Position numbers and translations under genes: made by a program. From assembly GCF_003268595.1 (NCBI RefSeq), contig NZ_CP029797.1, positions 2,377,501 to 2,441,500 of the forward strand: DNA of 64,000 nt. The letters run 5' to 3'. This DNA is from Paraliobacillus zengyii. Its GTDB lineage: Bacteria > Bacillota > Bacilli > Bacillales > Amphibacillaceae. This document shows positions 15,575 through 42,388 of the stretch, piece after piece; within the stretch, counting starts at the first letter, position 1, and the number at the start of each line of letters is the position of its first letter. A model generated the notes under the pieces. It was not told the DNA's origin. It worked only from the letters and a program-made list of their open reading frames with translations, and made no database searches.

Positions 15575-15705
15575 CCTCCTTCAAAAACTCAGACTCGCCA
15601 TACAGGTGTCATTTTCATGACTTAGTTAAGAAAATACTAGCTATGTAGCTCTCTTTTCTATTAACCCGATCTGTGCGGTTGTAGCAGCGGGCGCTACAAT
15701 GAATA
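15575..15705 (-). ncRNA. Candidate ribosomal protein L21 leader
   Basis: The 160 bp upstream of rplU contain a strong hairpin with TGTAGC/GCTACA arms around a GC-rich loop (15680-15698) and a conserved-looking GGCGAGTCTGAG box (15586-15597) close to the ribosome binding site. Low-GC Gram-positives have an L21 leader here (the Rfam L21_leader family) that lets L21 control its own operon. The family assignment is from position and partial motif recall; a covariance search would settle it. Confidence 0.6.
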
Positions 15706-25113: not shown

Positions 25114-25153
25114 TCAAAAAAACAAGAGGACCATTAATCTTGGTCCTCTTGTT
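25114..25153 (-). terminator. Terminator of the pilus operon
   Basis: ACAAGAGGACC (25122-25132) pairs perfectly with GGTCCTCTTGT (25142-25152), and on the minus strand a run of T follows. The stem includes the last codons of the pilO-like gene, so the pil transcript ends before spoIIB. Confidence 0.9.
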
Positions 25154-25763
25154 GTTGTTCTGCTTCTTGTTCTTCATCATATTCGAATGTTGGTGTTTCT
25201 GTTTGAAGTGCTGTTAGCGTTGGATTGTAAAAGGTAGTTAAACCGACGGAGAGTTCAATACTTCCTTCTTCTACTTGAACAAATTCAATATTATTAATTT
25301 CCACTATGCGATCCATGTTAGTTAACTCTGTTAAAAACTGATTCATCTCATCATAATTTGGTGATAATACTTCCATTTGATAATTTATTTTAGTAAGTTC
25401 AGATGTAGCTTCTCCATCTTGATCACTAGCTACTTGATCTTCACTATTCGTCAATAATGTTATAGTACTGTTCGTTTTCTTCTCTATTTCTTCAACATTC
25501 AAAATTAGTTGATTAATTGCTTTATCTATTGGGATTTGCTTTTGTAAATCCAATGAATTAGCAACTTCATCCTCAAGTTCTTGTTTACTTAAATCCGCAT
25601 TTTCGATCAATTGATCCTGTTCTGCAAGTTCACCTTCTAAGTACCTTACTTTTTGTTGACTAGGATAAATAAATTGATAATAAGAAAAAAAGGCAATTAT
25701 AATAACTAGTAAAACTACACCAATCGATAGCAATGAGTAGATACGTGACCATTTAAATATCAT
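25134..25763 (-). CDS. pilO: Type IV pilus assembly protein PilO-like
   Basis: The protein has one N-terminal membrane segment (about 8-30), a coiled coil (about 35-75) and a small C-terminal domain (about 95-190), the PilO layout. PilM, PilN and PilO form the inner-membrane alignment complex joining the motor to the pilus base. It follows the pilN-like gene by one base. The C-terminus is a Glu/Gln tail (EYDEEQEAEQQQEDQD). Sequence identity within this family is low, so the assignment rests on architecture and order. Confidence 0.75.
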   Translation of the reverse strand: MIFKWSRIYSLLSIGVVLLVIIIAFFSYYQFIYPSQQKVRYLEGELAEQDQLIENADLSKQELEDEVANSLDLQKQIPIDKAINQLILNVEEIEKKTNSTITLLTNSEDQVASDQDGEATSELTKINYQMEVLSPNYDEMNQFLTELTNMDRIVEINNIEFVQVEEGSIELSVGLTTFYNPTLTALQTETPTFEYDEEQEAEQQQEDQD

Positions 25764-25764
25764 T

Positions 25765-26292
25765 TTAATCAGCCTCTTCCACTAAATAATCTGCATTAAT
25801 ACCAAAATTAAATGTTGCAACATAGTAATCATCTATTTTTTCTAAATTTATTAAATTTACATTATCTGCATATGTCGACCCATTAATATTTTGACTAAAG
25901 TTGGCAGCTTCTGATAATGCATTTAAATGAATACCTATTGTTACACCATTCGTGATAGTAAATGAATAGTTTTCAATAAACGTATCGTTTGGCAAATCAG
26001 CTTGGATATCGTCTAATAAAAATAAAGAAGGATAAACAGCAGTTTCTAATTGCTCAATTTGTGCTTTCAATGTCTGTTTTTGTTGTTCGACCATGTTAAG
26101 TGTATTAATTTCTGCTATAATTTCAGATTTATCTATTCTTTCTTGTTGTAGAGAAACATATTTATTCTCCAAACTTGTATGGAGAATGAAGAAACTAATA
26201 CTAATAATAAGTAAACTGACCATAAATATAGCAAGTAGCAAATATAGGGCGGTATTTATCTTCTTTTTTTCAACAAAATTTATTTCTATCAT
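25765..26292 (-). CDS. pilN: Type IV pilus assembly protein PilN-like
   Basis: It starts with MIEINFVEKKK, close to the INLLP/INLxP motif by which PilN binds PilM, then one membrane segment (about 13-36) and a coiled coil (about 40-75), ending in a small alpha/beta domain. It sits between pilM-like and pilO-like genes. Assigned by layout and order. Confidence 0.75.
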   Translation of the reverse strand: MIEINFVEKKKINTALYLLLAIFMVSLLIISISFFILHTSLENKYVSLQQERIDKSEIIAEINTLNMVEQQKQTLKAQIEQLETAVYPSLFLLDDIQADLPNDTFIENYSFTITNGVTIGIHLNALSEAANFSQNINGSTYADNVNLINLEKIDDYYVATFNFGINADYLVEEAD

Positions 26293-26332
26293 AAGGTGAT
26301 CCCCTTACTATGAAGTTTAAATAGTCTTTTCT

Positions 26333-27274
26333 TCACTTTCTTTGTGTTAGTCCATATACAGTAGCATATTCTGGTGGTAAGTCACTAGGAAATAAAATGG
26401 TTTTAATTGGTAAATTGAAACGAGATGCCAGTGATTCATTTATTGACGACTGCGCTGGAAAATCACCGATTAATAATAAATGAGAAACTTGGGCCTCGCC
26501 TGACATAATAGAATATTGATAGAAATCCATAAAACGTTCTATGGTTATTAACTGTTCATCAATCAGCTCTCTCCACATATCTTCATTTGAATGCATGGAA
26601 TCTTCAACTAGCTTATTATTAAAAATCATATCATTATTATTTAAATGAATATGGCGATTGAAGATTGGTTTTTGATCATGAAAGACCGTGAGCACTAAGT
26701 CCGTTTTAGACCACTGAATCATAAGTAAATGCTCTTCTTTGTTAGCAAGATCCAAATTATAATAAGTCCGATATACCGATAGAAAAGACAAGTCAGCTAC
26801 CATCAGTTTTACATTCGCTCGTTCAAACACTTCTATGTAAGCATTTAACCGTTCTTTTGGGTATGCAAATAAAAGAATTTTATTGGTTTGTTCTTCTTCT
26901 GCAATAACCTCAAAATCTATAACTGGATTTTGAAAAGGCAGTCGAATACTACCTTCTAATTCTAATTCAATATATTTTTTTACTTCATCTTTAGTTAATT
27001 GTTTAGGTACTGATTCTTCTCTCATCGTAACAAAAGCATCTGGAACGCAAAATACGAGGTGCTTATTCCTCCATTTTTTATCTTTAACAACATTTTTAAT
27101 GATAGTCGTTAACTTTTGTTGATCTAAAATTTTTCCATCTTCAACAATGCCTTGTTCCAATGGTATTTCCCCATAGTCTTTATTAGCTGTAACGTTTTTT
27201 TTAGTGGAAACAAGATATCGAATCATCGTATCATTTATTGCGATGTTTATTCTATCTTTGTTAAATAAACTCAT
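26333..27274 (-). CDS. pilM: Type IV pilus assembly protein PilM
   Basis: PilM is a cytoplasmic, actin/FtsA-like protein that binds PilN and the assembly ATPase. The N-terminus (NIAINDTMIRYLVS), VFCPDAFVTMREESVPKQL-like middle segment and late HLLLIGDFPAQSSINESLASR match the family pattern. The length is 313. It lies between comC/pilD and pilN. Confidence 0.8.
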   Translation of the reverse strand: MSLFNKDRINIAINDTMIRYLVSTKKNVTANKDYGEIPLEQGIVEDGKILDQQKLTTIIKNVVKDKKWRNKHLVFCVPDAFVTMREESVPKQLTKDEVKKYIELELEGSIRLPFQNPVIDFEVIAEEEQTNKILLFAYPKERLNAYIEVFERANVKLMVADLSFLSVYRTYYNLDLANKEEHLLMIQWSKTDLVLTVFHDQKPIFNRHIHLNNNDMIFNNKLVEDSMHSNEDMWRELIDEQLITIERFMDFYQYSIMSGEAQVSHLLLIGDFPAQSSINESLASRFNLPIKTILFPSDLPPEYATVYGLTQRK

Positions 27275-27287
27275 TTGTGTTCATCCT

Positions 27288-28043
27288 TTAAAAAAATGAT
27301 GTAATGTACCAATTGATTATCTGACTACCAAAAAAATAAGTAGTTAACGCAGCGATGCAAATAGAAGGGCCGAATGGTACCGGACTTTTACGATTGATTC
27401 TTCTAGTAGCCAATAATAGCAATGTGATAATTGTGCCGAAGATAGTTGCTAGAAAAAAAGTTAGTAGAATTCCTTTATATCCTAACACAATTCCTAGTAT
27501 AGTGAATAACTTCATATCACCCGCACCCATACCACCTTTACTAACAAGTATGATCAGCGTTAATAATATAAATCCGACTGCTGCACCAGCAATTGAAGAC
27601 CACCATGGTTCTAACGGATCTATGATGCGTAAGATAATTAAAAACGGTAGAAAAAACAATAAGATTTTGTTAGGTATTAGCATATAAGTGATGTCTGAAA
27701 CAACGATAATCACACATAAAGAAGTGAGTATTAGTGCCATTACTAACTCTAATTGAAACCCCAAAAAATAATAGCTAAAACTGAAAAGGAAAGCTGTAGA
27801 TAATTCTATTGTAGGATAAAGAGGGGAAATCTTTTCTTTACAGTTTCTGCATTTACCAGCTTGAAACAGATATGAAATAATCGGAATCAGCTCATACCAA
27901 TGCAATGTTTTATCACAACGAGGGCAATAAGAACGTTCAGATTCTAAGAAATTATTATTCGGTACACGCAAACCAACAACATTATAGAATGAACCAAATA
28001 CACTTCCAAAAATAAAAAAGATAACGATATAATAGACTTCCAT
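27288..28043 (-). CDS. comC: Prepilin peptidase ComC/PilD
   Basis: This bifunctional membrane enzyme cleaves after the glycine of prepilin leaders and methylates the new N-terminus. Both catalytic aspartates are present: the first in VVSDITYMLIPNK (about 123) and the second in GGMGAGDMKLF (about 178). The two CxxC pairs of the methylase zinc site are in CPRCDKTLHW and CRNCKEKISP. There are about seven or eight membrane segments. In B. subtilis comC sits between folC and spoIIB; here the whole pilus locus occupies that position. Confidence 0.95.
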   Translation of the reverse strand: MEVYYIVIFFIFGSVFGSFYNVVGLRVPNNNFLESERSYCPRCDKTLHWYELIPIISYLFQAGKCRNCKEKISPLYPTIELSTAFLFSFSYYFLGFQLELVMALILTSLCVIIVVSDITYMLIPNKILLFFLPFLIILRIIDPLEPWWSSIAGAAVGFILLTLIILVSKGGMGAGDMKLFTILGIVLGYKGILLTFFLATIFGTIITLLLLATRRINRKSPVPFGPSICIAALTTYFFGSQIINWYITSFF

Positions 28044-28066: not shown

Positions 28067-28096
28067 TAAAAGACCCCTTTGGGAAGGGATCTTTTT
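28067..28096 (-). terminator. Terminator between pilA and comC
   Basis: A short hairpin (GACCCC/GGGATC-type arms, 28071-28091) flanked by A and T runs directly follows the pilin stop. It probably lets only part of the transcripts continue into comC-pilMNO, giving more pilin than assembly protein. Confidence 0.7.
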
Positions 28097-28105
28097 AAAA
28101 TATTA

Positions 28106-28438
28106 TTACTCAGTGTATTCGTATTGATTCGTATCTTCATCAAAAGTAACTGTGCCATCTGGTAGATCATCACTACCCTCAAGATAACCTGCTGTTACAA
28201 GTTCAGCAGCAGTCATACCAGTTTCGTCAAATTCACCTTCTACATCTGCTAATCTTGCAGCATCAAGTACCAATTCAATTTGAGCATCATCAGAATCTTC
28301 CTGTGCTCCCTCAATTATATTCCCAATTGCAGGAACGGCAATTGCTACAATAATACCCAAAATAACAATAACTGCTAAAAGCTCTACTAATGTAAAACCT
28401 TTCTCATTGCGTAACATTTTTTTCATTCTAGTTAACAT
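28106..28438 (-). CDS. pilA: Type IV major pilin PilA-like
   Basis: The class III signal ends NEKG followed by FTLVELLAVIVILG, with glutamate at position 5 of the mature protein; ComC should cut after that glycine, giving a 14-residue leader and about 96 mature residues. The start is the ATG at 28438, six bases after AGGAGG; the frame's earlier ATG forms part of that ribosome site. The globular part is extremely acidic: about 23 Asp/Glu and a single Arg, with no Lys, in the mature chain. Its own promoter and a c-di-GMP-II riboswitch precede it and a terminator follows it, as expected for the most abundant subunit. Confidence 0.9.
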   Translation of the reverse strand: MLTRMKKMLRNEKGFTLVELLAVIVILGIIVAIAVPAIGNIIEGAQEDSDDAQIELVLDAARLADVEGEFDETGMTAAELVTAGYLEGSDDLPDGTVTFDEDTNQYEYTE

Positions 28439-28467
28439 ATTATTCCTCCTCATTTAATTTCTCTTAT

Positions 28468-28503
28468 AAAAAAAGACTCACAGCATAAAAAATGGTGTCA
28501 GTC
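28468..28503 (-). terminator. Riboswitch expression platform: intrinsic terminator before pilA
   Basis: On the minus strand GACTGACA (28503-28496) pairs with TGTGAGTC (28482-28475), one internal mismatch, followed by seven T (28474-28468). The 5' arm begins inside the last bases of the aptamer (ACTG), so ligand-bound aptamer and terminator cannot both form fully. Confidence 0.75.
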
Positions 28504-28572
28504 GGTTGCACTACTAGCTCAAATTTATCCAAGTGCCCAGATACAGATAAACCTTCATTGCTTCTACTATTC
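28498..28572 (-). ncRNA. Cyclic-di-GMP-II riboswitch aptamer controlling pilA
   Basis: On the minus strand the leader contains AAGCAATG, then a GGTTTATC arm, CTGGGCACTTG, a GATAAATT arm, and TTTGAGCTAGTAGTGCAACC followed by GAC. This order matches the class-II c-di-GMP riboswitch of Clostridium acetobutylicum as I recall it (AAACAATG, GGGCACTTG, TTTTGAGTTAGTAGTGCAAC). The P2 arms differ from that sequence but still pair (GGTTTATC with GATAAATT), and GCAC pairs with GTGC as in the pseudoknot. P1 is short (TAGT with ACTG). An ON switch is inferred, because a stable P1 would withhold bases from the terminator. Confidence 0.88.
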
Positions 28573-28591
28573 GTTTTATACTAATAGTTCT

Positions 28592-28619
28592 ATTATACTA
28601 CATTTTTATAACCTGTCTA
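28592..28619 (-). promoter_or_regulatory. Vegetative-type promoter of pilA
   Basis: On the minus strand, TAGACA (28619-28614) and TATAAT (28597-28592) are separated by 16 bases. Transcription would begin near 28585, about 15 bases before the aptamer. Confidence 0.65.
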
Positions 28620-28624
28620 CACTT

Positions 28625-29827
28625 TTAGATATTTTCAAACAAGCTAAACATAGGTATAACGATCGCTAAAACAATTGCACCTACGATTACAGCTAAAAAT
28701 AGAATCATTATCGGTTCAATTAACGACTTTAACTTTTCCGATGATTCATCTAATTCTTGTTCATAAAAATCAGAAACTTTTTTCAACATCGCATCAATTG
28801 AACCTGTTCGTTCGCCTACAACAATCATTTGTGTAATTAATTTAGGGAAAACCCAATGTTTTTCCATAGGCGTGGCTAGTGACTCTCCCTTTTCAAGAGA
28901 ATCTCTACTTTCACGCAAAACTTGTTTAATTACTTTATTATCTATAACCCGCTCCGTTATCGTAACAGCTTGTAAGATTGGTACAGAACTATTTAACAAA
29001 GAACTTAATGTTTGCGTCATTCTAGCAAGTAAAGACTTTTGAATAAACATACCGAATATTGGAATTCGAAGTTTGATGACATCAAATAAATAAGAAATGT
29101 TTGGGCGACGATTTAATAATCTAATCGTCACACCTAACACTAGTATTAGTATCATCATAATCCACCAATAAGACTGAACCATATCGCTAATACTTAATAT
29201 CGCCGCTGTATATGGTGGTATTTCTTGGTCAAAAGATAGGAACATGTCCGTGAAAATCGGTACAATAAATGCAAGTAAAAAAATAGTGATAAATACGGCA
29301 ACAATACCAACCACAACAGGATAGGTTAATGCAGTTATGATCTTTTGTTTTAACTGGTATTGTTTCTCATAATAAGTAGCCATTCTATCAAGGATTTCAT
29401 CTAAATTACCACTAATTTCTCCAGCATGGATCATACTGATTAATAATTCAGGGAAAAGACGAGGAAATTCTGCTAATGCATCAGATAGGCCAATTCCTTC
29501 TTCTAGATCGTTTTGAATTTGTTGTAGCGCTTTTTTTAGTGGTTTACTTTGTGTTTGATCTTCTAGAATAGAAGTTGTTTCTACTAATGTTATACCGGCA
29601 TCTATTAACGTCGAAAATTGACGGAGAAAAATAACAAAATCCTTATTCTTTATTGGATTACCTATATAAATATCTTTGTATAAAAATGAGTTCAATTCAT
29701 TTATCTCAAATAAAATTAGTCCTTGAGACTTTAATTGTTTGATCGCTTCTTTTTCATTCTCGCTACTAATTTTCCCTTTTTTTATCTTGCCATCGACAGA
29801 TTTCGCTTTATACGCATAATAGTTCAT
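28625..29827 (-). CDS. pilC: Type IV pilus inner-membrane platform protein PilC
   Basis: The protein has 400 residues with two GspF-type domains (about 65-190 and 265-390), each ending in membrane segments. Signatures are FLRQFSTLIDAGITLVETTSIL and the repeated MIHAGEISGNLDEILDRMATYY / MIVVGERTGSIDAMLKKVSDFYEQ. PilC turns ATPase motion into pilin extraction. It follows pilT on the same strand. It is a full-length, ordinary member. Confidence 0.95.
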   Translation of the reverse strand: MNYYAYKAKSVDGKIKKGKISSENEKEAIKQLKSQGLILFEINELNSFLYKDIYIGNPIKNKDFVIFLRQFSTLIDAGITLVETTSILEDQTQSKPLKKALQQIQNDLEEGIGLSDALAEFPRLFPELLISMIHAGEISGNLDEILDRMATYYEKQYQLKQKIITALTYPVVVGIVAVFITIFLLAFIVPIFTDMFLSFDQEIPPYTAAILSISDMVQSYWWIMMILILVLGVTIRLLNRRPNISYLFDVIKLRIPIFGMFIQKSLLARMTQTLSSLLNSSVPILQAVTITERVIDNKVIKQVLRESRDSLEKGESLATPMEKHWVFPKLITQMIVVGERTGSIDAMLKKVSDFYEQELDESSEKLKSLIEPIMILFLAVIVGAIVLAIVIPMFSLFENI

Positions 29828-29860: not shown

Positions 29861-30901
29861 CTAAAAAGTCATATCTTTTAAATACGGAGATGCATGTTTT
29901 TGCGTTATAATTCCTTGTTGTAACATCCGTTTTATATCCATCGTCATGGTATGCATACCATACTCTTTAGACGTTTGCATGGTGTTAGGAATCTGATGCA
30001 TTTTTTCTGATCGAATTAAGTTTTTTACTGCAGGTGTGTTAATTAAAATTTCAGTTGCTGCTGCTCGTCCAAATCCTTTTGCCAAAGGAAACAAGCGCTG
30101 CGATACAATGGCCTCTAACACATTAGCAAGTTGAATTCTTATTTGACTCTTTTGGTGGGCAGGAAAAACATCAATAATTCGATCCATCGTTGAGGACGCA
30201 TCAGTTGTGTGCAGTGTTCCTAGAACTAAATGTCCCGTTTCTGCAGCAGTTATTGCTGTAGAAATTGTTTCTAAGTCGCGCATCTCACCAACTAGTATCA
30301 CATCTGGATCTTGACGCAAACACGCACGTAACCCTTTTTGAAAACTACTCGTATCGAAACCTACTTCTCTTTGATCGATAATGCATTTGTTATGCTGATA
30401 CAGATATTCGATTGGATCCTCTAACGTAATAATATGTCGGTTCATTGTTTTGTTCATATAATCAATCATCGCTGCCAAAGAAGTACTTTTTCCACTTCCA
30501 GTTGGACCTGTTACCAATACTAACCCTTGTGGTAACCCTGCTATTTCTTTCAATACGTTAGGTAAATCTAAATCTTCAATAGATGGAATCGTAGTTGGAA
30601 TCGTTCGAATAGCTAAAGAGATACAATTTCGTTGAAAGAAAATATTCATTCGAAAACGTGATACCCCTGCAATTCCATGTGATAAATCTAGTTCTCTTTC
30701 ATCTAGTAATTTAGACCACATCTCTTCGTTAAGAATCGATTTAGCCATTTGTTCCGTATCGGTTGGTTCTAATTTATTCTGTCCATGAAGTTGTAACCGA
30801 CCGTCCACACGAAAAATCGGCTGTGATCCTACAGTTAAATGGACATCTGACGCTTTTTTATGAAATGCTGTAGTTAATAATTCCTCTAGTCTATTTTCCA
30901 T
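29861..30901 (-). CDS. pilT: Pilus retraction ATPase PilT
   Basis: Walker A is GPTGSGKSTS (about 131), Walker B DPDVILVGEMRD (about 199), and the Asp and His boxes (HIITLEDPIEY, GHLVLGTLHT) are present. It has the short N-terminal PAS-like domain with SDVHLT, typical of PilT (346 residues), and lacks the MshEN domain seen in PilB. Its presence beside PilB implies pili that can retract. Confidence 0.93.
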   Translation of the reverse strand: MENRLEELLTTAFHKKASDVHLTVGSQPIFRVDGRLQLHGQNKLEPTDTEQMAKSILNEEMWSKLLDERELDLSHGIAGVSRFRMNIFFQRNCISLAIRTIPTTIPSIEDLDLPNVLKEIAGLPQGLVLVTGPTGSGKSTSLAAMIDYMNKTMNRHIITLEDPIEYLYQHNKCIIDQREVGFDTSSFQKGLRACLRQDPDVILVGEMRDLETISTAITAAETGHLVLGTLHTTDASSTMDRIIDVFPAHQKSQIRIQLANVLEAIVSQRLFPLAKGFGRAAATEILINTPAVKNLIRSEKMHQIPNTMQTSKEYGMHTMTMDIKRMLQQGIITQKHASPYLKDMTF

Positions 30902-30914
30902 GTTTGCTCACCAC

Positions 30915-32540
30915 CTACTCTTCCGTTGCCACACGTAATACTTCATCAAATGTGGTAATACCCTGCTGTACTTTAATTAGACCATCCACTAACAAAAATC
31001 GCATGCCATTTTGCTTTACATATTCTTTAATATCTGTCATATCAGACTGATTCATCATCATTTTTTTGACTTTATCATCGATTACTAAAAGCTCATGAAT
31101 TGCTGATCTACCACGATAACCTGTTGATCTGCAACTATCACAACCAACACCCTCGACCACTTCCGTTAAATCTATATTATGACGACTAAAAATTTCCTTT
31201 TCCATTTTAGTTACGGGTCGTGATTGTTTACAATCGACACAAACTTTTTTAACTAAACGTTGGGCCATTACTGCCGATAAAGCAGAAACGACAAGATAAG
31301 GTTCAACATCCATATCAAATAGACGAGGAATCGCTGCAATAGCACTGTTTGTGTGTAGTGTACTAAATACTAAGTGCCCAGTTAATGCTGAACGTATTGC
31401 TATTTCAGCAGTTTCGCGGTCACGAATTTCACCAACCATTATTATATTTGGATCTTGGCGTAAAATTGATCGTAAACCTTTTGCAAAAGTAAGACCTACC
31501 GCAGTATTTACTTGGACCTGATTGATACCTTCCAATTGATATTCAACTGGGTCTTCTATTGTGACGATATTAACATCTTCCTGGTTCAATTCATTGATTG
31601 ATCCATAAAGTGTTGTTGTTTTACCAGAACCTGTTGGACCTGTTAATAAAATTAATCCTGAAGGTTGTTCGATTATTTTTTGATATTTATCTAAAGTGTC
31701 TTTTGAAAAATCAAGTTCTGTCAATGTTTTAAATATATTACTTAAATCTAAAATACGAATAACTATTTTTTCACCAAAAACCGTTGGTAAGGTTGAAATC
31801 CGTAAATCGACTGGTTTCGCATCAATGATTAAACGAATTCTACCGTCTTGTGGCAAACGTGTATCCGTGATATTTAATTCCGATAATATTTTCACTCGGG
31901 CAATTAAAGCATTTTGTAATCGCTTTGGTATTGTTTTTTCTGTTCGTAACATACCATCAACTCTATATCGAATCATAACCTTCGACTCTGAAGGATCAAT
32001 ATGTACATCACTCGCTTTTAACGTTACACCTGTTTGTAATATTTGATCTAATATCCGAATGGCAGGCGCTTCCTCATTTTCAGATTCCTCATCTGTATAA
32101 GCGGCTTCCATGTCATAATATTTATTTATCGCTTGTAAAATATCATCTTTTGTTGCGATTACAGGTTTGATCGTAAACCCTGTTGATAGTTCTAAATCAT
32201 CAATTGCATAATAATCAAGCGGGTCATTCATTGCAACAGTTAAAATATTCTCTTGTTGTTGTATAGGTAAAAGCGTATTTTCACGTGCTGTTTCTTTTCG
32301 AACAAGATCCATTAAACCTTCATCAATTGGAAAACGATATAAAGAAACGCTTGGAATTTTCAAATGTACTTCTAAAACTTCTAATAATTGTTTTTCCGTG
32401 ATATAGCCCTGTTCAACAAGTGCATCCCCTAGTTTTTGTTTCTCCCATTTTTGTGCTATTGCCTCAACTATTTGTTGTTCGGTAATTAAGCCATTTTCTT
32501 TAAGGACGTCACCAAGTTTCCGTTTATTTCGTATCGCCAT
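30915..32540 (-). CDS. pilB: Pilus assembly ATPase PilB with MshEN c-di-GMP-binding domain
   Basis: The order is an N-terminal MshEN (GspE-N) domain, a linker, the N2 domain and a RecA-like ATPase. Walker A is [13 protein letters not shown] (about 297), Walker B NIIMVGEIRDRETAE (about 365), and the CVDC...CDSC zinc tetracysteine is near 440. Two tandem copies of the (R/K)LGxxLxxxGxIxxxQ(I/L)xxxL motif lie at residues 8-28 and 36-56, the arrangement shown to bind c-di-GMP in MshE. PilB powers pilus extension. The sequence suggests that extension needs or senses c-di-GMP, matching the riboswitch on pilA and the GGDEF protein at the head of the locus. Confidence 0.93.
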   Translation of the reverse strand: MAIRNKRKLGDVLKENGLITEQQIVEAIAQKWEKQKLGDALVEQGYITEKQLLEVLEVHLKIPSVSLYRFPIDEGLMDLVRKETARENTLLPIQQQENILTVAMNDPLDYYAIDDLELSTGFTIKPVIATKDDILQAINKYYDMEAAYTDEESENEEAPAIRILDQILQTGVTLKASDVHIDPSESKVMIRYRVDGMLRTEKTIPKRLQNALIARVKILSELNITDTRLPQDGRIRLIIDAKPVDLRISTLPTVFGEKIVIRILDLSNIFKTLTELDFSKDTLDKYQKIIEQPSGLILLTGPTGSGKTTTLYGSINELNQEDVNIVTIEDPVEYQLEGINQVQVNTAVGLTFAKGLRSILRQDPNIIMVGEIRDRETAEIAIRSALTGHLVFSTLHTNSAIAAIPRLFDMDVEPYLVVSALSAVMAQRLVKKVCVDCKQSRPVTKMEKEIFSRHNIDLTEVVEGVGCDSCRSTGYRGRSAIHELLVIDDKVKKMMMNQSDMTDIKEYVKQNGMRFLLVDGLIKVQQGITTFDEVLRVATEE

Positions 32541-35025: not shown

Positions 35026-36747
35026 TTATGATTGATAGACCGCAACTCGATTTCTACCTTTTTGCTTAGCTCCTACATACATCGCACGATCTGCTAACCT
35101 GACCAATTCGAATGGGTCTTCACAATGCTCCGGATAACTAGCAACTCCTACACTAATGGTGACCGTAATATCAATACACTTTTCATTTTCTTGTATATGT
35201 GTATAGGTTCTTATTGTTTTATTTGTAATAACTTGGCGTAATTCTTCTGCGCGTTGCTGACTGTCTTCTGCATTCCTTCCAGGTAAAAACACGACAAATT
35301 CTTCGCCACCATAACGTGCTACTAAGCCTTCATCTCCAATAAATGTTTTGACTCTTTCTGCTATAGCTTTCAGAATTTCATTGCCACATTCATGTCCATA
35401 CGTATCGTTTATCTTTTTAAAATGGTCTAAATCGAATAAAATAAGTGAACAAATTTTTGATTTGTTGGATTCTTTGATTTGAGTACTATAATTTTGCATA
35501 TAAGCTTCAAAATAACGAAAATTATATAAACCTGTTAATTGATCTGTTTCACTTTGTATTTTCCTATCTTCGTAATTTTTTGCGTTTTCTAACGCAATTC
35601 CCAAGAAATTATTTAGTATATTTAATATTGTAAATAAGTGCTCCGTAAAGGCTTGTTTATATTTCGATACGAAAACGATAATCGCAACAATTTCATTATT
35701 CCGTTTTACAGGCATAACAACAAGACTTTCCCCATCTTCGGGTATGGCACTATCACGTATATAATCCCATGCTTTCTTATGTTTATAATGCAGCATTTCT
35801 TCTTGTCTCCACGCTTGTTGGATAATAGTATTTCCTTCTTCAATACAAATAGAATCACGATAAACAAGACCTTCTAATTTAGTATAAGAACGAATTAATT
35901 TTAATTGTCTATTATCTACCACATCATAAGCAAAGGCATAATCTACAGCAAAGATTTCTGTAATATGGGTTAAAAAAACCGAAATAACATCATTCCGTTC
36001 TAACTTCCCTGTTAACGCCTGTCCTATTTCATTTGTTTGTTTTAAATAATAATTTACTGTTCTACTAGAATAGAATAGTTTCATAATAATAGAAATACTA
36101 ATAAACGGTATGCCAACTACGTAAATACCAATAACACCAAATTTTTCATACATTAAATAGAGTATAAAACCAATTGGTAAAACAATTAAAGTCGTAATCA
36201 TTTCCCACAAAAAACCTTCATCAAAGAATTTTGTTTCTTGTTCATAAAAAAAGCGTTTAACGAAGTGGAGGAAAATTTGATTAGAAAGAAAAACTGTTAC
36301 CACATAACCAATTAATTGCAATTGTTGGGTGAAAGAATCTAAAACAATCGCTTCGTGTAAACCACCTATCCATTTATATACACTTGCCGATAAGACGGAT
36401 ATGAATAAAAACATAAGTAGATTAAGCGGAATTCGAAATGCCTGACTTTTATCTATTTTAAGTTTAATTAAAACAACAACTAATGCAATTTGCGTTAGTA
36501 ATACTTCAATAAATAATCCGAATATTAAAAAGACTGCAAACCCAATACAATTCACCAAAAAAATCGGTGTTTTATTAACAATTATAGGAAAAAAGGAAAC
36601 TGTGGCCATAATGATCGCAAATGACACGACACTTAACAACTGATCTTCATAATAAATTGGCCATGCAACATATGTCCAAACGATAGATAATGGCCAAATA
36701 ATTAACCAAATTATCCAAAGTAACATTCTTTTTGATTTTAAGACCAT
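35026..36747 (-). CDS. Membrane-bound diguanylate cyclase (GAF-GGDEF)
   Basis: The N-terminal half (about 1-225) has some seven to eight membrane segments. A GAF-like sensor domain (about 245-385) and a GGDEF domain (about 395-570) follow. The active site is intact: ARYGGEEFVVF, with DLDHFKKINDTYGH upstream. The inhibitory RxxD site expected five residues before GGEEF reads GDEG, so product inhibition through that site should be absent. It would make c-di-GMP from two GTP. It is first in the pilus locus, 69 bp before the minor pilin genes, and starts after AAAGGAGG. What the membrane part senses is unknown. Confidence 0.9.
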   Translation of the reverse strand: MVLKSKRMLLWIIWLIIWPLSIVWTYVAWPIYYEDQLLSVVSFAIIMATVSFFPIIVNKTPIFLVNCIGFAVFLIFGLFIEVLLTQIALVVVLIKLKIDKSQAFRIPLNLLMFLFISVLSASVYKWIGGLHEAIVLDSFTQQLQLIGYVVTVFLSNQIFLHFVKRFFYEQETKFFDEGFLWEMITTLIVLPIGFILYLMYEKFGVIGIYVVGIPFISISIIMKLFYSSRTVNYYLKQTNEIGQALTGKLERNDVISVFLTHITEIFAVDYAFAYDVVDNRQLKLIRSYTKLEGLVYRDSICIEEGNTIIQQAWRQEEMLHYKHKKAWDYIRDSAIPEDGESLVVMPVKRNNEIVAIIVFVSKYKQAFTEHLFTILNILNNFLGIALENAKNYEDRKIQSETDQLTGLYNFRYFEAYMQNYSTQIKESNKSKICSLILFDLDHFKKINDTYGHECGNEILKAIAERVKTFIGDEGLVARYGGEEFVVFLPGRNAEDSQQRAEELRQVITNKTIRTYTHIQENEKCIDITVTISVGVASYPEHCEDPFELVRLADRAMYVGAKQKGRNRVAVYQS

Positions 36748-42094: not shown

Positions 42095-42388
42095 CAATCG
42101 GTTCCGAAAACATAAAAAACCCTTTACATCCAATAAAGGACGAAAAGGGCTAGATTCCGTGGTACCACCTTTGTTTACATTTTCCTAAAAAAATGCACAC
42201 TCAATTAGGATATAACGGTTCTTCACCGGCTCCTTCTACTATACATTCAAAGTAGCTGCATCCAAGGCGACATTCCAAAACAGATAATCCTAAGAAATCT
42301 TTCAGCAAATGATTTCTCTCTCTATTGGCATCTCTTCTGTACTCTTCCTCTTCTTCGCATTTCAATTTCATTTATTCTTATATCAGCT
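42095..42388 (-). ncRNA. T-box leader of valS
   Basis: On the minus strand the leader has the T-box sequence AGGTGGTACCACGG (about 42150-42163), then a terminator hairpin with GCCCTTTTCGTCC and GTAAAGGG arms and a T run (about 42110-42145). A long stem I region begins near 42385; GAATGTCGCC offers a GTC valine codon at 42271-42269 as the likely specifier. Uncharged tRNA-Val should stabilise the antiterminator and turn valS on. Confidence 0.9.

Follow-up and report, generated by a model that had tools for sequence, protein, structure and literature searches.

The closest described counterparts of the leader analysed here are the class II c-di-GMP riboswitches of Clostridioides difficile, which are reported to be ON switches; at Cdi-2-4, pilA1 is described as transcribed with c-di-GMP and terminated without it (PMC6366702). 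Cdi2_4 has been placed upstream of the pilin gene CD3513, for which the available text gives type II control as positive and one figure legend as negative (PMC3649979). Another element, Cdi2_1, is reported to act on translation initiation, and both transcriptional and translational platforms are therefore known in class II (PMC11477304). Two reviews describe the class as predominantly Clostridioides (PMC12564702) and as typical of clostridia and deinococcus (PMC9495176).

Outside this group, a pil operon was reported in Bacillus sp. NRRL B-14911, in what ‘may be the first report’ in a Bacillus, and the word riboswitch is absent from the accessible part of that article (PMC3244431). In Paenibacillus thiaminolyticus, a pilus cluster has been reported whose MshEN motif is perfect (PMC9765702); in the portions available of that paper and of PMC6916266, riboswitch occurs solely in a reference title. 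Judged by title and the start of the abstract, no open-licence paper on pilin genes of Bacillaceae under class II control was found among the matches listed.

The window, a 64,000-nucleotide stretch of the genome of Paraliobacillus zengyii, a member of the Bacillaceae, contains what is very probably a c-di-GMP-II riboswitch that works as a transcriptional ON switch; it has a promoter of its own and sits in a type IV pilus cluster, with pilC on one side and the pilin gene on the other. The features concerned all lie on the minus strand and are given below from upstream to downstream.

35026..36747 (-), GAF-GGDEF diguanylate cyclase gene with GGEEF intact, at the head of the cluster (Pfam, sequence)
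30915..32540 (-), pilB ATPase gene with an MshEN domain, PF05157 (Pfam)
29861..30901 (-), pilT-type ATPase gene, T2SSE, named from position and size (Pfam)
28625..29827 (-), pilC, T2SSF, directly upstream of the switch (Pfam)
28614..28619 (-), -35 hexamer TAGACA (promoter scan)
28592..28597 (-), -10 hexamer TATAAT, 16-nt spacer (promoter scan; recurrence in syntenic loci)
28491..28571 (-), c-di-GMP-II aptamer, RF01786 (cmscan, 68.5 bits)
28522..28553 (-), long helix GGTTTATC/GATAAATT with loop TGTATCTGGGCACTTG, 8/8 standard pairs
28508..28536 (-), pseudoknot, GCAC 28536-28533 with GTGC 28511-28508 (model alignment)
28475..28503 (-), intrinsic terminator GACTGACACCAT/ATGCTGTGAGTC, starting at aptamer position 72 (folding)
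28468..28474 (-), T7 run of the terminator (sequence search)
28445..28450 (-), Shine-Dalgarno sequence AGGAGG (sequence search)
28106..28438 (-), type IV pilin gene, N_methyl PF07963, probable start ATG 28438 (Pfam)
28074..28088 (-), terminator-like hairpin 3' of the pilin gene, -13.8 kcal/mol with flanks
27288..28043 (-), pilD prepilin peptidase gene (Pfam)
25134..27274 (-), pilM, pilN (below the Pfam cut-off) and pilO genes (Pfam)

The initial annotation had assigned the leader to class II from the motifs AAGCAATG, GGGCACTTG and GAGCTAGTAGTGCAACC, which are indeed present in that order, and the Rfam covariance model bears this out. An Rfam cmscan of the whole window, in which three families reach their gathering scores, c-di-GMP-II being one of them, matches RF01786 at 28571-28491 on the minus strand over model positions 1-84, with 68.5 bits and an E value of 3.1e-13 against a gathering score of 53.5; in the full 3.73 Mb genome this is the sole RF01786 match. 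The arms annotated earlier as a P2 that still pairs, GGTTTATC (28553-28546) and GATAAATT (28529-28522), are the model helix 22-29/46-53 and do pair at all 8 of 8 positions, two of them as G.U. The pseudoknot GCAC/GUGC and the conserved GUGCAACC are both present, and pocket bases, pseudoknot and long helix are all intact. On this sequence evidence the RNA is a c-di-GMP-II aptamer and should sense c-di-GMP. The departure from the family model is in P1, where a 3-nt deletion and one A.C mismatch leave 7 of the 11 model pairs standard, three being deleted, and P1 comes to 2-3 contiguous pairs.

Read along the minus strand, the leader runs from the promoter through about 20 bases to the aptamer, the terminator, the T7 run, AGGAGG and ATG 28438. 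The pilin identity proposed earlier is upheld by the N_methyl match (PF07963, with E 1e-8 when the longer frame of 115 aa is taken), and the start is probably ATG 28438, behind AGGAGG at 28450-28445 (110 aa), rather than the ATG 28453 of the open reading frame list. Upstream on the same strand, beyond pilC, lie the pilT-type and pilB genes, a PilX_N gene, two further N_methyl genes and the GAF-GGDEF gene; downstream come pilD, pilM, pilN and pilO, then a SPOR-domain gene, radC and a MreB-family gene. Past the GGDEF gene are a Mur-ligase (folC-like) gene, a RimK-like gene on the opposite strand and valS. Within 21907-42068 the pilus cluster is thus flanked by valS/folC-like and SPOR-domain/radC/mreB genes. 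At this place Bacillus subtilis has folC-comC-spoIIB, with comC only, and its comC may be a remnant of such a pilus cluster. The window also holds two other Rfam leaders, a T-box ahead of valS (42133-42364, 120.5 bits) and an L21 ribosomal leader (15581-15690, 43.5 bits).

A copy of this RNA in the pilus locus of a sporulating member of the Bacillaceae had been called unusual, a view that the relatives do not support. Among the 150 nearest genomes, the window's own included, RF01786 occurs at E <= 0.001 in 83 (81 of them over the cut-off), which together carry 103 aptamers, and in 61 of the 150, again counting its own, an aptamer lies between pilC and the pilin gene. Synteny was defined by pilC on the same strand 200-1300 bases upstream, giving 61 aptamers from 61 genomes, 46 in the window's family and 15 in other families of the order. 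The pilin motif follows the aptamer at 60 of these 61 loci: a regular expression named 53 of the 103 aptamers and missed eight syntenic loci, of which a frame scan recovered seven and G056 was the exception. None of the 103 aptamers has a pilin call outside the place next to pilC. The order pilB-pilT-pilC-switch-pilD-pilM on one strand is found in 56 of 60 relatives. The window switch is genuine, but it is no exotic case of its known kind, since the arrangement recurs in many relatives; among the 150 genomes, G001 alone is marked as belonging to the same genus. As a marker for the pilus cluster the PilM family was discarded, having matched 148 of the 150 genomes, including long proteins that are clearly not PilM.

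The RNA itself extends further, to 67 of 299 genomes sampled in the class and 108 of 398 in the phylum. At the 55 class and phylum loci surveyed (L161-L215), of which the core regular expression recognised 27 and the other 28 were left out, the pilin motif follows 1 of the 27 aptamers. A downstream reading frame was found for 38 of 42 non-pilin aptamers (36 distinct, cut at 600 aa); Pfam assigns G5 to 6 of the 36, VanW to 6, EAL to 4 and MCP signal to 2, and one each to T2SSE, MshEN, A24 peptidase, GGDEF and collagen-binding, with others, among the 25 families listed of 31. Several relatives have c-di-GMP-II aptamers near pilB or pilD and outside the pilC-pilin gap (L095, L098, L117, L123, L127), and divergent or tandem aptamer pairs were seen at L045 (G033), L053 (G094) and L107 (G122).

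The syntenic loci also bear on the promoter. The initial annotation had a promoter before the leader, and a sigma-70-type one, TAGACA-16-TATAAT, is present at 28619-28592 with 11 of 12 matches. The promoter scan is at chance level, with 7 such sites per 1501 bases against 8.2 expected from shuffles, and is therefore by itself no evidence; a -10-like hexamer within 45 nt upstream of the aptamer is found, however, at 56 of the 61 syntenic loci, against a mean of 35.2 and a maximum of 45 in mononucleotide shuffles, and this recurrence supports the predicted -10.

It had been noted that the aptamer's end overlaps an intrinsic terminator closing on seven T, and this overlap is present: the stem of the 28503-28475 hairpin starts at G 28503, aptamer position 72, directly after AACC, and the T run extends to 28468. 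The hairpin has two internal mismatches and, with its T7, a computed energy of -10.3 kcal/mol; a terminator scan did not list it. In the computed ligand-free ensemble its 10 pairs have probabilities of 0.96-0.99. Two folding results tell against the switch: the long helix of the aptamer, computed without ligand and pseudoknot, has a probability of 0.04, and the leader, when simply folded, gains no stability over shuffled sequences (z 0.02). Blocking bases 72-76 weakens the terminator from -10.3 to -2.2 kcal/mol.

This register is common among relatives. Hairpins followed by a T run, at -5 kcal/mol or better, accompany 65 of the 103 aptamers, 30 of the 53 leaders with a pilin call and 35 of the 50 others, and overlap the aptamer in 25 of those 30 and 31 of those 35. 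In the 56 of the 65 hairpins that could be placed in register (nine were missed by the core regular expression), the first terminator pair falls on the base right after AACC in 32 and at most 4 bases off in 46; holding bases 72-76 takes the median of these 46 from -13.8 to -5.3 kcal/mol.

Since the terminator starts at position 72, the bound aptamer and the full terminator compete for the same bases, and an ON switch is therefore predicted, like Cdi2_4/pilA1 of C. difficile. Without ligand, the leader would fold into the terminator, with aptamer bases 72-75 engaged in its lowest pairs, and the polymerase would halt at the T7 run; once c-di-GMP is bound, the aptamer, through its pseudoknot, AACC pocket and short P1, would hold bases 72-76, the terminator would lose the pairs adjoining the T run and the polymerase would enter the pilin gene. 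The hairpin 3' of that gene may confine most of the effect to pilin; a terminator-like hairpin past the pilin stop occurs at 19 of 60 loci, the window included, against 5 of 60 when each was shuffled once. Binding, the direction and strength of the response and any pilus phenotype are what we infer from this arrangement. The opposite direction, in which c-di-GMP would promote termination ahead of the pilin gene, has a precedent in the functional class I switches of C. difficile, reported to be OFF (PMC6366702), and is nonetheless very improbable, as aptamer sequence makes up the first terminator arm both here and in 46 of the 56 scored hairpins, so that a bound aptamer opposes termination, and the computed folds of the leader contain no separate anti-terminator.

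For the predicted ON switch, the initial annotation had c-di-GMP stabilise P1, break the terminator and turn pilin on. The ON logic is what the overlap predicts; the part given to P1 calls for revision. Its arms form a duplex of -0.4 kcal/mol, those of the terminator one of -9.1 kcal/mol, and with the deletion and the A.C mismatch this weakens the case for P1 as the main anti-terminator. Because P1 has only 2-3 contiguous pairs, the whole ligand-bound aptamer must hold the terminator base, and it is more apt to see the anti-terminator in this bound aptamer, with its grip on bases 72-76.

Conservation points the same way. In 48 aptamers, namely the 47 of the 103 that are 84 long and the window's with its deletion, the long helix is paired at 92.4% of positions against 58.0% (maximum 64.8%) when arms are dealt among sequences, the pseudoknot at 97.9% against 89.3%, the 13-15/57-59 helix at 84.0% against 70.8%, and P1 at 60.6% against 50.0% (maximum 54.9%). 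In 56 of 56 overlapping terminators, including all 27 in pilin clusters, the arms match each other better than they match arms from other genomes; for P1 arms the counts are 43 of 56 and 17 of 27, with mean energies of -3.5 and -3.1 kcal/mol respectively. By these sequence comparisons, the conserved elements are the terminator and the aptamer core, and P1 is a minor partner.

P1 arms also have -0.4 kcal/mol in the congener G001, and since P1 is very weak in both species the switch could be a poor one. Such weakness, together with the P1 pairing across the 48 aptamers given above, would fit an aptamer kept by descent whose P1 has decayed, with fixed termination or leak whatever the ligand. We regard this as improbable: nothing is lost from the pocket bases, the pseudoknot or the long helix, the score clears the cut-off by a wide margin, the weak P1 is common to two species, and P1 is weak in terminator-bearing pilin leaders generally, where swapped arms average -2.7 kcal/mol against the -3.1 of the true ones.

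The expression platform varies. With a strict terminator defined by 6 T in 8 and G056 left out (n=60), an overlapping terminator is present in 27 of 60 pilin leaders, near-terminators, for example in G036, G097, G098, G117 and G142, being counted among the 33 without. Holding the 3' end of the aptamer makes the Shine-Dalgarno region freer by at least 0.2 in 7 of these 33 against 1 of the 27, and in 4 of the 7 (G020, G039, G068, G069) CCGGCC faces GGCGG. Some leaders without a strict terminator may, tentatively and by these folding models, hide the ribosome-binding site instead. That the window's leader, too, acts on translation start and not on termination, as some short-leader relatives suggest, is extremely unlikely, as it contains a terminator followed by T7, and the Shine-Dalgarno sequence comes only after these; moreover, mean access in the 27 leaders with a terminator shifts little (0.49 to 0.46) when the aptamer is held. 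Platform exchange in relatives is a lead, not a result.

In favour of the switch, the genome has 20 GGDEF and 10 EAL places. Of the 59 syntenic loci with at least 7.9 kb of upstream sequence, 17 have there, in the same orientation, a gene for a relative of the window's GGDEF protein; in the congener G001 none was found in the corresponding upstream stretch. Class I c-di-GMP aptamers number 7 in the genome and zero in the window. Taking the first downstream reading frame only, a neighbour was found for 6 of the 7, up to 682 nt off (L138-L140, L154-L160); these include a pectate lyase with CBM77, GGDEF-EAL, HD and DUF5667 proteins and a PTS enzyme.

A broader scenario is possible, though doubtful: in this order of Bacilli one ancestral aptamer would have become fixed between pilC and pilin and stayed there, its platform changing between nested terminator and Shine-Dalgarno masking, with a conserved competition through the pocket-flanking bases 72-75 rather than P1, and with the cluster-encoded diguanylate cyclase it would form a local c-di-GMP-to-pilin circuit.

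A second route to c-di-GMP control of the pilus would be PilB itself. The c-di-GMP motif of MshEN is given as two copies of RLGxx(L/V/I)(L/V/I)xxG(L/V/I)(L/V/I)xxxxLxxxLxxQ (PMC5013675). The window PilB shares the MshEN domain of such pilus control and differs in that both of its motif copies begin with KLG and lack the Gln at the last place, so that the motif is imperfect and c-di-GMP binding by PilB is therefore uncertain. None of the 54 PilB recovered from the 61 loci has the strict motif, and the residue before the first LG is R in 27, K in 26 and A in 1; a narrower first survey, which recovered 17 of the 61, had none either.

As a member of its Rfam family, the window aptamer is a full-length match over the gathering score that differs by the 3-nt deletion and A.C mismatch in P1. 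Among described switches, Bc2 of Bacillus thuringiensis, ahead of cap, is likewise reported as an ON switch of a surface protein in the Bacillaceae (PMC6366702, PMC4933901), but it is class I, a different RNA family (RF01051), and the gene behind it is not a pilin gene. The nearest system is Cdi2_4 of C. difficile pilA1/CD3513, which as reported shares with the window a class II aptamer before a pilin gene and has the antitermination ON logic (PMC6366702, PMC3649979); the likeness is drawn from the descriptions, and the window's host belongs to the Bacillaceae. The window's switch also sits inside the cluster, after pilB-pilT-pilC, whereas in C. difficile the pilB operon is described as following pilA1. 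The window thus holds a well-conserved c-di-GMP-II riboswitch before a pilin gene, a kind of switch already known, and its interest lies in conservation across an order: c-di-GMP-II control of type IV pilin is extended from C. difficile to one order of Bacilli, where it recurs and where about 60 natural leaders on one gene make transcriptional and possibly translational platforms comparable.
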